From: Hericium rajendrae
Lineage: Eukaryota > Basidiomycota > Agaricomycetes > Russulales > Hericiaceae
Reading direction: 5' to 3'
DNA: 64,000 bases
Assembly (NCBI GenBank): GCA_033439255.1
Contig: CM065881.1
Span: forward strand, 1,178,001 to 1,242,000
The notes under the pieces are model-generated. The model saw nothing but the letters and a program-made list of their open reading frames with translations. It was not told the DNA's origin and did not search any database. The first letter of the stretch is position 1. Each line of letters begins with the position of its first letter. Positions 10,705 to 53,569 of the stretch are shown piece by piece. Both the position numbers and the translations under genes were made by a program.

Positions 10705-12271
10705 TCAACGTGTTATGATATCGACCTGCATCTCTTGGTCAGGAATGTCAGCCTGGGTCCACACAGCTGCATTGCTCCTAGTTCCTGTGACGACAGGAGT
10801 CTGGCCCTCCAACGGGCCGACCAGCTCTCGCAGGCGTTCATAGGAAAGCGTTTCGTTACGATGTGACGTCAAGGCCGACACTAGAGCGCGTGTGAAAACG
10901 CCCATGGTGGTCTTGCCATCCTCGAAGATCCGCTCGCGCGCCTGCTCGCCACTGCTGCAGGCAGCCATCACGACGAGGGCCTCATCCGCCTTCCAGCTCC
11001 CATCATGTGCTCTAAGCGTTTTGCTACGACGCCGATGGTCAGTATCCGCGGCGAGAAGCATATGTTTGGTGGCGTCTTGAAGAGGTGGGGCGGAGCGAGT
11101 ATCTAATGTGCCAGTGGTAACGGCGGCGCTCTTCGGCCCCCCGACATCGCTTGCATGCGCAAAAGAGCAGTCCATAATTAGCGTAACCTTGGCGGCTTTC
11201 GCATCTTGGACCTCAGAAAAGATAAAGTTCAGTTCCCTGTCACTGATATCGGGCGTCTTGGGGCACGACTTCTTTGAATTCTCAAGGCCGCGGTCCGCAG
11301 GACAGATGGCGTCGATGATACCAGCGGGTGTACCAGACTTGGGTGGGAAGACTTCTGCGGAAGAGTAGCTTGATCCACGCCCGGAGAAGTAGAAAATAAC
11401 GAAATCACCCGGGCGTATTGACTTGTTGTCCCACAGGTGGTCGTATAAAGCACGTACGATATTCGCGCGAGTTGGGGGTTTCGGACGCATGGATTTGTCA
11501 GGAAATTTGCCCTCGGCAAGGACCTGGATGTGATTGGGAGGGACGGAAAATTCGGTCCTAAGGTACTGCCATATGTGAGTGGCGTCGTTGGTACAGCCCT
11601 TGAGAGACAACGTGTCGTCGTTGTAGTACTTGTCTACTCCGACGATAATGGCCCAACATCGAGAGCCAGAGAATTCTGTCTGTACGAACCTGTGATTAGC
11701 ATAAACATGGCATAAATAAGATAAGACATACCTCAGAAGCGGATCTCGGCATGAGATTGTTCGGCACAACTCTCCTCAGCAGAGTGCTCACCACCTGATA
11801 CTTTTGATGTCGGAGATGGTGCAGCTTGTCGAGTTTCTGGAGGTTGGCTAGGTCGCCCTTACGACTCGGGTTTCTGCACTCTGTGCTGAATTTCCTTCAA
11901 CAGTTGATCGCTGTCCATACGTTCCGTCTTGTGGTCCAAATCCCACAGTTTCTTCTCCGTTTTCTCGAGCGGAGCCATCTGCTTCTCGAGCTTCTTCAGT
12001 TCGGAAACCATGCGTTTGCACTCTTCGTCCAGCGGCTTTCCCTGGATAATGCGACTCCAGTCCGTCCAATACGACGAAAGTGCATTTGAGTCCTCCGCGC
12101 TGCTCTGAAAGAAGGGAGTCTTTCCAGCAGTCTGCAGCCTCTAATTGAATTACAGCTTACCGACTGGTCTGCCGCGACTGTAGCTACATCACTGGTGCCG
12201 TGTGTGGCCTGACATTCCTGTTTCGTCTTTGGCTTCATACGCCCGAAAAGACTAGAGAGAAATTTCCCCAT
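10705..12271 (-). CDS. Caspase-fold (peptidase C14/metacaspase-like) protein, probably inactive as a protease
   Basis: The main exon carries a caspase p20-like domain: RCWAIIVGVDKY, GCTNDATHIWQYL, VPPNHIQVLAEG, PTRANIVRALYDHL and GDFVIFYFSG. In family members the last block continues as SGHGS, giving the catalytic His; here codon CGT gives SGRGSSY. The Cys block LIMDCSFAHASD keeps the Cys but not the usual DCCHSG. The p10-like end includes ACSSGEQARE. The N-terminal exons from the Met at 12271 encode about 35 polar residues, then a charged coiled coil. Frame continuity suggests introns at about 12100-12157, a short 43-nt intron near 11867-11910 (or else a frameshift), and one ending at TACAG so that RSASE joins TEFSGSRCW. 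Fungal caspase-fold proteins of this kind are often expanded and can be regulatory. A scaffold or sensor role is inference only. Confidence 0.75.
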
Positions 12272-49221: not shown

Positions 49222-50608
49222 TTGAGGCAGAATTTCCAGTGTTCAGCTATGATCTGCGTCATCGAAGCATTTATTGACTAGCCAGTAACTATCAGTGGTA
49301 CATATACTGAATCCTCGTTATGCTTCTCTTCGACATATCTCTATTTATATTCTGGTCATGAGCTTCATAAGCCTCTCTCGGTGAGTGTTGCGTTGTCATA
49401 TTCATAAACACTGACTTGTATCCCAGAAGGGTACGCCTATATATACCTGGCGGACTTGAATCGGACCCAAATCATGCCCTCAGTCATCTAATGAGACCGC
49501 GATTTCAGGACTGGTTTTCTTGATTGGACCAATCGAGGCTACAGTACGGCTGACGGTTCGGTATTGTAGGTAAAGCCGTCTGCGCGACTGCCTGCCACGC
49601 GGACCTGGAACAGGGATCAGAGGTGGTCCAGGGCAGAGGCGGTGAAATACACCAAGGACACACTACTTCGTCTTCCACTTTCCTTCTCGAGCTCCCTCTT
49701 ATCATCATTCGACTCAGTCCAGATGAGCGGTAATCTTTGGATGAATCACATCACTTCCTTTGCGGTGTAGGCCCTAGTCCATCAGATGTAGAACGTGAGT
49801 TCTCGCGCATTTCTTGAGAAGTCCTGCATACTGAGCTATCCCGAGATCCGACGCTGTCTTCTCTTGACATCGATAAAACCTGTGAAGCCAGCGATATGCC
49901 CAAGCACATTATCGTATTGAACCTTATGTACAATTTCTACGTCGCAATTGTGTGGTTTGTGTTCGACAACAGGGCACACCAGTGCATTATCGTGGTGATC
50001 TTGACGCTTCGATCACGTCTCATCTCCCGGCACATGGTCAGAACCTGATTATCGTGACGATCGCTGGGCTCTGAACTTCCTCTCGGCTTTAGAACTGCAG
50101 CAGTTCTATCAAAGGCGAATGGTGAGCAGCATGATCTCAGGCTTCACACTGGTTCTGTATCTTGATTAAATTCAATATTGTCCAAGCAGTGTCGTTTGAA
50201 GGGGTGAGGACAGTGCAACGGTAACTTCCAAGGACAAAGCCCCCGGTGCTATCTTTCACCGCCAATGCATCCATTCCTCACTGCCCTTAGGTATTCACAC
50301 CAGTATCCGGCACGCTTCAACGCCATGTCTTCCACGTTCGCATTTACCTTTGCATGCCACGGACCGAGCACGGAAAGAGGCACATTAGTAGGCCTGCGCG
50401 ACACCAAATGATGAAGCAACAAGTACCGAACAACTTCCCGCGAATTCCGAATGCCCTCACAAGCGCTCAATACCACAGCTTTCCATCTTCGTCCCTGTTC
50501 TGATCCTCATGTTAGGTATTTAAGCGATCCTCGGCGCCGCAGTGCGGGTGTTCGCCATTCATCTCATCGCCTGCCGGCTCACAGCTATCCTTTCGATTTC
50601 CGATCACG
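49222..50608. other. Gene-poor stretch between the two small families
   Basis: About 1.4 kb. A spliced short frame at about 49360-49490 (MSFISLS, then GYAYIYLADLNRTQ) is possible but weak. The last ~220 bp is the promoter of the first 11-mer gene and contains motifs shared with the next two copies. Confidence 0.45.
50516..50523 (+). promoter_or_regulatory. TATA-like core promoter of 11-mer family member D
   Basis: GTATTTAA followed by GCGA, 93 bp ahead of the ATG at 50609. The same GTATTTAA(A)GCGA element is 95 bp ahead of member E, and a weaker CATAAGAGCGA is ahead of member F. ATTCCGAA with GCGC(T/C) about 30 bp further downstream is also shared by all three upstream regions. Confidence 0.55.
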
Positions 50609-51242
50609 ATGGGCAGCTTGCTTTCCTGCTGTGCGGACGCTGCGGAAGAGGAGAAGCGTATTGTGACGGAACATATCAAGTACGTGCTGCCATCCCTTGA
50701 GAGTATCGTATATTGAGATAGAGTCCGCGATGCAGGGAGATGAAGGAGGAAGCTACCGACCAGGTTCATAAGGTGCAGACCGAGGCGCTTGGGCGCGTGA
50801 AGGACATGGAGGCCGCCGCGGTGGACAGGGTCCACGATGCGGAGGAGACCGCCGTGAAGCGCGTGCGTGAGGCGGAGGACGATGCCACAGACCATGTGAG
50901 GAAGGTCCATGACGATGCCAGTGACGAACTGCGCAACGTGCAGGAGGATGCGGAGGACGGGCTGCAGGATCTGCACTCGGATGCTGGGAGCGGGATTGAG
51001 CGTTTCGCTCCCGATGATGCTCTGTACGTATTTTCATATAATGGACTTCGATCTCGAGGATTAATTACTGGGTATCCTATGGCGTTAGAGAGTTCCTCGA
51101 GGTCGCGGAGGATGCGGCAAGCTTTGTTGATGATGGCTCGGACAACGAGCGCTCGCGTTCAGGCTCGCCGACGCACGGGCGGGCACCGCACACGATGTCG
51201 ACGAGGGCCAAGTCGACTGTAAAGTCGGGCCGTAAGAAGTGA
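50609..51242 (+). CDS. Lipid-anchored 11-mer repeat protein, family 2 member D (170 aa)
   Basis: Exons 50609-50679, 50736-51023 and 51089-51242, both introns phase 2. Exon 1 (71 nt) encodes MGSLLSCCADAAEEEKR; Gly2 with Ser6 fits the N-myristoylation consensus and Cys7-Cys8 are likely palmitoylation sites. Exon 2 carries seven 11-residue repeats: KVQTEALGRVK, DMEAAAVDRVH, DAEETAVKRVR, EAEDDATDHVR, KVHDDASDELR, NVQEDAEDGLQ and DLHSDAGSGIE. Such 11-mers form amphipathic 3-11 helices in LEA group 3, perilipins and synucleins, which bind membranes. Exon 3 is a Ser/Arg-rich tail ending TVKSGRKK. No transmembrane segment. A peripheral protein at a membrane or lipid surface is inference; the family itself is not recognised. 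Confidence 0.75.
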
Positions 51243-51687
51243 CACTATTATAGGCGCATCTCACCACTGTATATATCTTTTCTGTTTGGATCCAGCGTAT
51301 AGCTATGATGAACGTTTCATCTTTCTACGTCCTGTGATATGTTCAATGATTTCCGACCCAGAAAACGTCAAGCTCGGTATGTGAGCCTCGATTAGGGCTC
51401 GGCGGTGTGTTTAATTTCTCCTTACTTCTTACAACGTCACGAACTAAATACAGCAACAGGCGACATAGGGCCTGATCAGAACACCACTCTATTGATGAGG
51501 GAACAAGTCCCGAGCAGTCCGCTTTAATTCCGAACTATCTTCGCAGGCGCTACGGTCATCCCTTCCATGCGTAATCCTGGTTTTATCCTCGTGTATTTAA
51601 AGCGACTCAGGGCTTGCGCCGTGGGTATTTTCAGCCCATCGCTCGTCGTCCGCTTACCCCACTTGATCCTTGCCAGTCGCTGCAGCT
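51243..51687. other. Spacer of family 2 (D-E) with promoter
   Basis: About 445 bp without a gene. GTATTTAAAGCGA at 51593-51605 is the TATA-like element of member E, and AATTCCGAACT...GCAGGCGCT at about 51526-51551 the shared upstream motif. Confidence 0.6.
51593..51600 (+). promoter_or_regulatory. TATA-like core promoter of 11-mer family member E
   Basis: GTATTTAA (then AGCGA), 95 bp ahead of the ATG at 51688; position and context are conserved with the element at 50516. Confidence 0.55.
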
Positions 51688-52584
51688 ATGGGCAGCCTGT
51701 TCTCCTCTTGTATCTCCGCCGTGGACGAGACGAAGAAGAGTGTGACGGAGGGTGCCAAGTACGTGCCCTCGTTGATCTTGTGCTGGACGATAGCGATAGC
51801 GCGCTGACATGTCGCACGACAGGGGAATCAAGGATGGCCTCACCAGCCAGGTGAAGAAGGTGCAGGCTGATGCGGTCGAGCGCATGAAGGATCTGGAAAC
51901 CGCCGCGGAGAACAAGGTCAACGAGGTGGCGGACACCGCTGTGAAGAAGTTGGCCGAGGCGGAAGAAGAAGCCACGGCGCACGCGAAGAAGCTCCAGGAC
52001 AGCGCCAACGATAAGCTGCACGATGCGCAGGAGCAAGTAGAGACAAAGCTGCGCGACGTGCAGGACCAGGCGGAAAAGAAAGTACATGAGGTGCAGGATC
52101 AGGCGGACCGGAAGCTGCATGATATACAGGAGACGGCGGAGAAAAAGGTGAGCGAGGTGCAGGACAAGGTCGGGGAAAAGATGCAGGATATAGAGGGGAA
52201 GGTGCAGGATATAGAGGAGACGGCAGCGAAGAAGATGAATGAGGTGCAGAAGGAGGTGGGTGGGAAGATCAAGGAGACGGTTGATAAGGCGGAGGAACAG
52301 ATGCAAGACCTGAGCGACCAGGCCGATAGAGCAATTGATAAGCTCGGGCCTGATGATGACAAGTACGTGGCTTTGCTGATCTTGAGTAGTGGGCACTCAT
52401 GCGGATATTCTGTGACTATAGAGAGTCCTCGCGCACCAAGGATGCGAAGGATGCGGAGGGCGCGAAGGATGCGAAGGATGCAAGGGCGGCGAGCCCTGCT
52501 GCTGCTGCTGCACCGGCCCGCGAGCGATCAACCTCACCGTCGTCAAAAGCTCAGTCGTCTGAAAAGTCCGGCAGTAAGAAGTGA
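51688..52584 (+). CDS. Lipid-anchored 11-mer repeat protein, family 2 member E (257 aa)
   Basis: Exons 51688-51758, 51823-52362 and 52422-52584, both introns phase 2. Exon 1 (71 nt, as in D and F) encodes MGSLFSSCISAVDETKK, with Gly2/Ser6 for myristoylation and Cys8 for palmitoylation. Exon 2 has fourteen full 11-mers and one 7-residue unit, for example DVQDQAEKKVH, EVQDQADRKLH, DIQETAEKKVS, EVQDKVGEKMQ and DIEETAAKKMN. Leu/Val/Ile at positions 2 and 10 and Ala/Val at position 6 make one apolar face; the other face is Asp/Glu/Lys. The first six units align one to one with member D, so E grew by adding units in the second half. Exon 3 is Ala/Lys/Ser-rich (KDAKDAEGAKDAKDA) and ends SEKSGSKK. 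Unknown function; membrane or lipid-droplet association is inference. Confidence 0.78.
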
Positions 52585-53132
52585 TCCCAGAGAGTATCGC
52601 GCTTGCACTTCACGACATCCCATGAACACTCACTTTACATGCAATTTGTCTTTAGGTCTAATCACTGTTATGGCGAAGCATTTCATTTTTACTATACCCC
52701 TACCAGTTGGCTCCAGATATGTTAAGCGTCAGGCTCCTTACACGAAATTCGAACAACCCTGATGTTAGGTTCTGATCTTGTTTGATCTCGAATGTTCCGT
52801 TCATCCGTCCGACCATGAAATCGCCGGACATACAGACCATGAAGATCCTAACTGAATCTGTCTCGTGTCTGGACCCTCAATAAAGAAGTCAACAGTGTAA
52901 GTATCCGAATCAAATTAAATCTATGAAAGTCACAGAGATAACTCTAAATCTGGTATCATACCTGACAGGCATTCAGACCATAATGGCCCCGAGCAGTTTC
53001 CAAGGTTCCATGCCGATTCCGAATGCTTTCGCGAGCGCCAGGTTGCGTTCATAAGAGCGACCATGAAGTCTTCTGGAAGGCCGTATCGGCACTCATTAGT
53101 TCACCCATACCTCTGCATTGTTAGCATCACCC
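52585..53132. other. Spacer of family 2 (E-F)
   Basis: About 550 bp without a gene. From about 52985 it resembles the promoter regions of D and E (GCCCCGAGCAG, GATTCCGAATGCTTTCGCGAGCGCC), but the TATA-like element is weaker (TTCATAAGAGCGA at about 53049). Confidence 0.6.
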
Positions 53133-53569
53133 ATGGGCAGCTTATTCTCTTGCTGTGTTGAGACCGTCGAAGAGGAGCTGGACTATGCTAAGGACCGCGT
53201 TAAGTACGGATTTTCCATCATCGCGGTAGATCAAAGTATTGACTCATCCTTATATTGGTGCAGGGAGATTGAGAATGACGTCGTCGACAAGGTACGCGAC
53301 GCCGAGGAGGAGGCCGTCGAGCGCGTGCGCGATGCTGAAGATGAGGTCACGGAGCGCGTGCGGGACCTGGAGGATGATGCTGACAGTATGAAAGGACGGT
53401 ACGGCGACGACGAAGAGTTCGTGCTTTCGTTGGTTTATCAGGTGGCAGGACCTCATCATGACTGGGTACCAGGGAGCGTGCGGCAGCGGTCACGCACGAT
53501 CGGCCTGCTAGACAAACGCGCACGCCAGTTAAAGGCAAACCGGCTACGAAATCGGCCCATAAGAAGTAG
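53133..53569 (+). CDS. Lipid-anchored 11-mer repeat protein, family 2 member F (100 aa)
   Basis: Exons 53133-53203, 53264-53398 and 53473-53569, both introns phase 2. Exon 1 (71 nt) encodes MGSLFSCCVETVEEELDYAK. Exon 2 is the shortest of the three, with about three repeat units (KVR, then DAEEEAVERVR, DAEDEVTERVR and DLEDDAD), all acidic-basic with Val in the apolar places. Exon 3 is basic and ends ATKSAHKK, parallel to SGRKK of D and SGSKK of E. Reading without splicing gives a longer frame, but the spliced model is preferred because it restores the same exon phases and the Lys-Lys tail. It is the most reduced member. Confidence 0.7.

Follow-up and report, generated by a model that had tools for sequence, protein, structure and literature searches.

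Among described proteins, those that may come closest in action to the genes considered here are cavin1 with its undecad repeats, Plin4 and the stalks of rotary ATPases, with Leishmania HASPB the nearest parallel for an anchor combined with repeats; all are put forward as analogies, with no relatedness shown. The genes, here called A, B and C, lie in tandem on the forward strand of a 64,000-nucleotide (nt) stretch of Hericium rajendrae DNA (contig CM065881.1, positions 1,178,001 to 1,242,000, of assembly GCA_033439255.1), referred to below as the window. A first-pass annotation, made from the sequence alone, had described them as a tandem family of dually lipidated proteins built on 11-residue amphipathic repeats. 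They do form one family of three, with the same gene plan, start signal, repeats and Lys-Lys end, and they are tentatively read here as membrane-anchored helical rods.

The HR2 undecad repeat (UC1) of cavin1, a protein of plasma-membrane caveolae, is made up of 11-residue repeats, as are the blocks of A, B and C, and HR2 acts in self-assembly and phosphatidylserine binding (PMC12079668). Recruitment of cavins is credited in that source to the coiled-coil HR1 and to lipids rather than to N-terminal acylation, whereas the A, B and C blocks are acidic and follow a putative acyl anchor; no cavin family is among their Pfam matches. Plin4 and other PLIN 11-mer helices share with them a long unbroken 11-mer helix with few large hydrophobic residues and asymmetrically placed charges, but Plin4 is net positive, has a charged fraction of 0.15 and is far longer, at 968 residues (PMC5889406). 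ApoA-I has the same period and a similar hydrophobic moment, but is broken by seven prolines (PMC5889406), of which the blocks have none.

The stalks of rotary ATPases (the b dimer of ATP synthase and the E-G stalk of A/V-ATPases) are right-handed hendecad coiled coils, the Thermus E-G pair being rich in Ala, Leu, Glu and Arg (PMC6131620). Unlike A, B and C, these stalks are held by a transmembrane part or by other subunits and have a hydrophobic e position, and no homology to them is shown. The hendecad stalks are parallel. For the anchor, HASPB and yeast Vac8 both have a short N-terminal signal that is myristoylated and then palmitoylated; HASPs, like A, B and C, also have variable central repeats, although in that account those of HASPB are not presented as 11-residue helices (PMC3491706). 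Group 3 LEA proteins (LEA_4) have 11-residue units as well, with a charge consensus from which A, B and C depart. They are not known to carry an acyl anchor; the repeats of Vac8 are armadillo repeats.

If the predicted lipidation is real, the three genes would be a compact natural test of how an acidic 11-residue-repeat helix behaves when pinned to a membrane, as a coat or as an upright rod, and their three natural lengths between the same ends make that question directly testable. They would also add an anchor-plus-hendecad architecture: literature searches found no description of a fungal family of this kind among the matches listed, in agreement with the first-pass annotation.

The repeat block

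By several measures, the blocks are built on an 11-residue amphipathic unit, as had been proposed. Self-identity at a lag of 11 residues stands above that of shuffled sequences (z of 9.2 for A, 5.7 for B and 5.7 for C); the hydrophobic moment peaks at 98.5 degrees in A and B and at 99.5 degrees in C; and the moment observed at 98.18 degrees was reached by none of 5000 shuffles in each of the three. At the heptad angle, 3730 of 5000 shuffles of A and 3437 of 5000 of B reached the observed value, which is chance level. The best 89-residue moment was 0.379 in A and 0.435 in B, against 0.298 among 97 other open reading frames (ORFs) of the window, each at least 89 amino acids long and counted once per place after overlap removal.

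There are 29 full registered units (nine in A, sixteen in B and four in C), plus one partial unit in C, with a consensus of roughly E/D-V-Q/E-D/E-x-A-x-D/E-K/R-V-K/R. Position 6 is A, V or L and position 10 is V, L, I, M or A in every full unit; at position 2, 25 of them have a hydrophobic residue or Ala. The resulting hydrophobic stripe is narrow and alanine-centered, flanked on one side by Lys or Arg at position 9 (18 of 29 units) and on the other by Gln or Glu at position 3 (19 of 29). A 7-residue insert in B leaves the stripe in phase, and the unit register continues through exon 1 of all three genes. The blocks are proline-free, the first proline falling at residue 116 in A, 200 in B and 86 in C. 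Their hydrophobic fraction is 0.32–0.34, with aromatics at 0–0.02, a moment of 0.37–0.41, a charged fraction of 0.43–0.60 and a net charge of −14 to −16.

N-terminal signal and tail

The three N-termini conform to MGSL[LF]S[CS]C (Table 1) and hold every cysteine of the proteins: C7 and C8 in A and C, C8 alone in B. The acylation-type start that had been claimed is present. Each has the SH4-type arrangement of MGxxxS with a nearby Cys, in agreement with the general N-myristoylation motif; from the motif, N-myristoylation at Gly2 (with Ser at position 6) and S-acylation at Cys7/Cys8 are predicted. An N-myristoyltransferase gene, above its family cut-off, is present in the genome. A degenerate DNA pattern for the MGSL start has three matches in the window, against a mean of 0.00 in shuffled sequence, and six in the whole genome, these being A, B, C and the loci L004, L005 and L006.

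The Lys-Lys ending noted in the first-pass annotation is found in all three tails (GRKK, GSKK and AHKK); the basic character ascribed to them is true but modest, since over the final 45 residues the charges sum to +3 in A, +4 in B and +3 in C. Retrieval to the endoplasmic reticulum by a C-terminal KKXX motif was considered and ruled out, the lysines being at −2 and −1.

Gene models and codon-position differences

Genes A, B and C span 50609–51242, 51688–52584 and 53133–53569, with predicted proteins of 170, 257 and 106 amino acids. All have three exons and two phase 2 introns: exon 1, exactly 71 nt long, encodes the start signal and one unit, exon 2 the remaining units, and exon 3 the tail. 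The six introns are all GT..AG and 56–65 nt in length; the second donor of C (GTTCGT) is the weakest of them, and less certain. Exon 2 of B has 33-nt and 21-nt tandem repeats at the DNA level.

Judged by codon position, the repeat reading frame is under protein-level constraint, because the differences between genes concentrate at the third position. Over 42 codons, the C block differs from the best-matching stretch of A by 10, 11 and 27 bases at positions 1, 2 and 3, with 13 purely synonymous changes; the corresponding counts are 26, 26 and 43 between A and B (88 codons) and 19, 19 and 29 between C and B (42 codons). Past its first eight codons, exon 1 has no clear third-position excess, 9–13 of the 16 codons in each gene pair being non-synonymous, and constraint on exon 1 is therefore visible only in the signal itself. 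The shared 71-nt exon 1, the phase 2 introns and the third-position drift in the repeat frame together argue for the exon joining that had been proposed.

Profile matches

A likeness to LEA group 3 proteins, perilipins and synucleins had also been suggested, but it extends to the period only. Neither LEA_4 (PF02987) nor the synuclein Pfam model matched A, B or C at E ≤ 1, and Perilipin (PF03036) matched B alone (E 0.73, 9.3 bits against a cut-off of 33), neither A nor C reaching it within E ≤ 1. The 3-4-4 hydrophobic spacing of LEA group 3 is found at positions 10, 2 and 6. A six-frame genome search with LEA_4 gave no match, a negative that carries no weight because the controls gave none either.

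For A and B the best Pfam score was with Apolipoprotein A1/A4/E (PF01442), at 25 and 65.4 bits respectively against a cut-off of 90; C had no match at E ≤ 1. Matches to this family below the cut-off were also found in 13 of 14 prokaryote controls. The 16 units of B, taken without the ends of the protein and without the 7-residue insert, scored 54.3 bits; three of three column-shuffled versions scored 55.9–59.8, the reversed block 46.0 and two of two polar-scrambled versions 44.3–45.9, and three of three full shuffles matched no family at E ≤ 0.1. Because the column-shuffled controls score like the repeat block itself, the match reflects period and composition rather than ancestry, and apolipoprotein homology was rejected. 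Whole B scores above every one of these controls, but it is longer, and still under the cut-off. The NCBIfam matches of A, B and C all fall below their own cut-offs, and PDB matches are weak and mostly to apolipoprotein A-I (best E 0.00054).

Possible arrangements at the membrane

The reading tentatively preferred here, though we hold it to be somewhat short of probable, is that A, B and C are a family of membrane-anchored helical rods. Through acyl groups on Gly2, Cys7 and Cys8, the N-terminus would be held against the plasma membrane or an endomembrane, on the cytosolic side. The proline-free block would be a straight helix, about 8 nm long in C, 15 nm in A and 27 nm in B if fully helical, whose V/L-A-V stripe could form a parallel hendecad coiled coil with the equivalent stripe of A, B or C, with the Lys/Arg flank opposite the Glu/Gln flank assisting parallel pairing. 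The rod would project the basic tail off the membrane, where it may attach to an acidic partner or to another anionic membrane; possible roles are those of a spacer, scaffold or tether, with a reach set by unit number. A bolder version, in which the three are acyl-anchored molecular rulers of a new fungal family, with a common anchor and tail and four-and-part, nine or sixteen units, co-assembling in parallel to give graded spacing between a membrane and an acidic surface, is unlikely.

Several properties of the block bear on the choice between an upright rod and a coat lying on the membrane. Canonical hendecads have hydrophobic residues at a, d, e and h (PMC6131620). Here positions 10, 2 and 6 would be a, d and h, hydrophobic and giving the 11-residue stripe, and position 3 would be e, which is not. 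In a parallel pair the two flanks would lie opposite each other, and residue 9 and residue 3 of the next unit form 10 attractive, 17 neutral and no repulsive pairs of 27, the attractive ones being 3 of 8 in A, 3 of 15 in B and 4 of 4 in C; the net score was reached in 4 of 10,000 shuffles of the polar residues. The charge load of the blocks exceeds the 0.15–0.35 given for four 11-mer lipid-surface helices (PMC5889406, Table 1) and nears the 0.44 of an E. coli ATP synthase b segment. By a HeliQuest-type D of at least 0.68, 0 of 88 windows of 18 residues in A, 20 of 174 in B and 0 of 43 in C reach the threshold. On balance, an acidic block with a narrow stripe suits a parallel hendecad rod slightly better than a lipid-droplet coat.

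A number of observations weigh against the rod. Gln or Glu occupies the e position in 19 of 29 units, and the core is therefore narrow and Ala-rich. The register of the flank test was picked after the pattern had been seen, and 17 of its 27 pairs are neutral. C is beyond chance at the heptad angle too (25 of 5000 shuffles), and cannot separate heptad from hendecad because its block is too short. Two of the 174 windows in B have D above 1.34. The block moment is at the level of ApoA-I (0.39; PMC5889406) and twice that of the E. coli b segment (0.20), whose net charge of +1 also contrasts with the −14 to −16 of the blocks; the CCTalpha membrane helix, at 0.49, has a charged fraction within the block range (PMC5889406, Table 1). 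Since Plin4 on lipid droplets is charge-asymmetric too (PMC5889406), the flank pattern favors helix-helix contact more than it does upright geometry. Finally, the lipidation on which an anchored rod would depend is a prediction from the motif.

Some of the same points would fit a membrane-lying amphipathic coat, similar in action to Plin4 or the apolipoproteins, in which the N-terminus is lipid-anchored, the helix runs along a membrane or droplet, and neighbors pack side by side through their basic and acidic flanks. This is a real possibility, if a rather doubtful one. The block moment equals that of ApoA-I and exceeds those of Plin4 (0.257) and synuclein (0.30), on a scale that is the same in name although the averaging may differ (PMC5889406, Table 1), but the face that produces it is narrow and alanine-centered. 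Plin4 is likewise poor in large hydrophobic residues, and its authors propose that its asymmetric charges make contacts between helices on lipid droplets; it is net positive, however, where the blocks are strongly acidic, and their charged fraction lies above that of all four 11-mer helices (PMC5889406). A lipid anchor would offset weak adsorption. The block of C, at about 53 residues, falls short of the 66-residue Plin4 piece that remained cytosolic, albeit unanchored (PMC5889406).

It is improbable that the proteins are membrane-fixed, disordered stress protectants of an LEA-like kind, which would fold as the cell dries and so shield the bilayer. Their 11-residue units, high charge and low hydrophobicity are in keeping with this, as are the short Ser/Lys/Ala-rich tails, and LEA_4 did pick up one of the column-shuffled controls of B (E 0.0064, under the cut-off), so that the block make-up is not far from that family; the three proteins themselves do not match it at E ≤ 1. 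Their charges are also differently placed. Lys positions 6 and 8 of the group 3 consensus correspond to positions 3 and 5 here, which are Lys in 4 units and 2 units of the 29, respectively. The consensus is acidic at position 3, which corresponds to position 11 here, a Lys or Arg in 15 of 29. Least likely, and very much so, are non-anchored coiled-coil proteins, in which either exon 1 and the repeat exon are not spliced together or acylation of the MGSL start does not occur. In favor of this, intron 1 of B holds an in-frame ATG, a possible unspliced start, and exon 1 past codon 8 lacks a clear third-position excess; against it, the length, phase and signal of exon 1 are shared by three otherwise diverged paralogues, cysteines are confined to the signal, and exon 1 keeps to the register of the units. 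As for the lipid-droplet or desiccation role raised in the first-pass annotation, the present analysis does not support it.

Features of the locus

Exon and upstream coordinates are collected in Table 1. A pattern derived from the 23-bp stretches upstream of A and C is confined, genome-wide, to those two sites. B has a similar stretch that is offset in position, and CCCGAGCAGT is common to B and C. The stretch shared by A and C is possibly a common promoter element, or it may be a mere duplication relic.

Table 1. Exons and upstream elements of genes A, B and C, in window coordinates.
Feature	Position	Strand	Description
Upstream of A	50444..50466	+	ATTCCGAATGCCCTCACAAGCGC; 19/23 bases common to C; genome C4:1228444-1228466
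Gene A exon 1	50609..50679	+	71 nt; MGSLLSCC acylation-type signal and first 11-residue unit
Gene A exon 2	50736..51023	+	Eight more 11-residue units, then PDDAL
Gene A exon 3	51089..51242	+	Tail, Ser/Arg/Lys-rich near its end; terminates GRKK
Gene B exon 1	51688..51758	+	71 nt; MGSLFSSC signal and first unit
Gene B exon 2	51823..52362	+	Fifteen more 11-residue units, one 7-residue insert (DIEGKVQ), then PDDDK
Gene B exon 3	52422..52584	+	Tail with KDA and Ala runs; terminates GSKK
Upstream of C	53016..53038	+	ATTCCGAATGCTTTCGCGAGCGC; genome C4:1231016-1231038
Gene C exon 1	53133..53203	+	71 nt; MGSLFSCC signal and first unit
Gene C exon 2	53264..53416	+	Three full units and one partial, then DDEE
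Gene C exon 3	53473..53569	+	Basic tail; terminates AHKK

Immediately downstream, two enzymes are encoded: NAD(P)H-hydrate dehydratase, and phosphoglucomutase with the vertebrate/fungal C-terminal domain. Like the short introns, they fit a fungal origin. In the window, an ORF at 10708–11775 on the reverse strand encodes a caspase-domain (metacaspase-like) protein (Pfam Peptidase_C14, E 1.6e-13).

Family extent in the genome

The genome searched comprises 46.8 Mb in 19 contigs. With A as query, B was found at E 7.9e-14 and C at 1.4e-11; with B, A was found at 2.4e-14 and C at only 0.13; and with C, A was found at 1e-5 and B at only 0.10. Identity in the matched parts is 40–42% for A and B, 41–47% for A and C, and 27% for B and C (E about 0.1, not significant), so that B and C are linked through A, exon 1 and the gene plan. 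Searches with A, B and C revealed no fourth close member in the genome (best outside match E 0.14), although only the best first-look candidates were scored and a diverged member is possible. Among viral contigs, none of 347 pattern matches was confirmed.

The three other matches to the start pattern, L004 to L006, were rejected as family members, no repeats following in the 1200 bases read. L005 (C7:2928973) and L006 (C7:2999043, minus strand) are alike in 1195 of these 1200 bases; the two copies, one on each strand, are separated by about 70 kb and have the start MGCFLSCC.

There are 17 PF01442-like ORF matches genome-wide, A and B included. Two of them, L015 and L016, encode hendecad-like proteins and lack an MGSL start in the frame that was read. 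Over 66 residues these unrelated ORFs have moments of 0.368 (L015) and 0.416 (L016); given such strong 11-residue periodicity, it is the combination of features, and not the period by itself, that defines the family.

ORFs with repeated helical units were seen at C14:827227-827631 (L015), C14:808322-808579 (L012/L023) and C7:1963099-1963323 (L016). By eye, L015 resembles L023, which lies some 19 kb away on the other strand. A short ORF at C14:17457-17696 (L013/L024) has a Trp-rich WWSWFGWG followed by charged, helical-looking units, and is perhaps a separate membrane-interacting protein. Five loci (L020, L021, L022, L026 and L029) carry a near-identical ORF of about 350–370 amino acids with a Cys-rich start, LDSCERCVTDQKPCF, which is how a mobile element or a repeat would look. 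Finally, an LEA-like, Ala/Gln/Ser-rich ORF at C1:2075904-2076062 (L028) terminates in EQKK.

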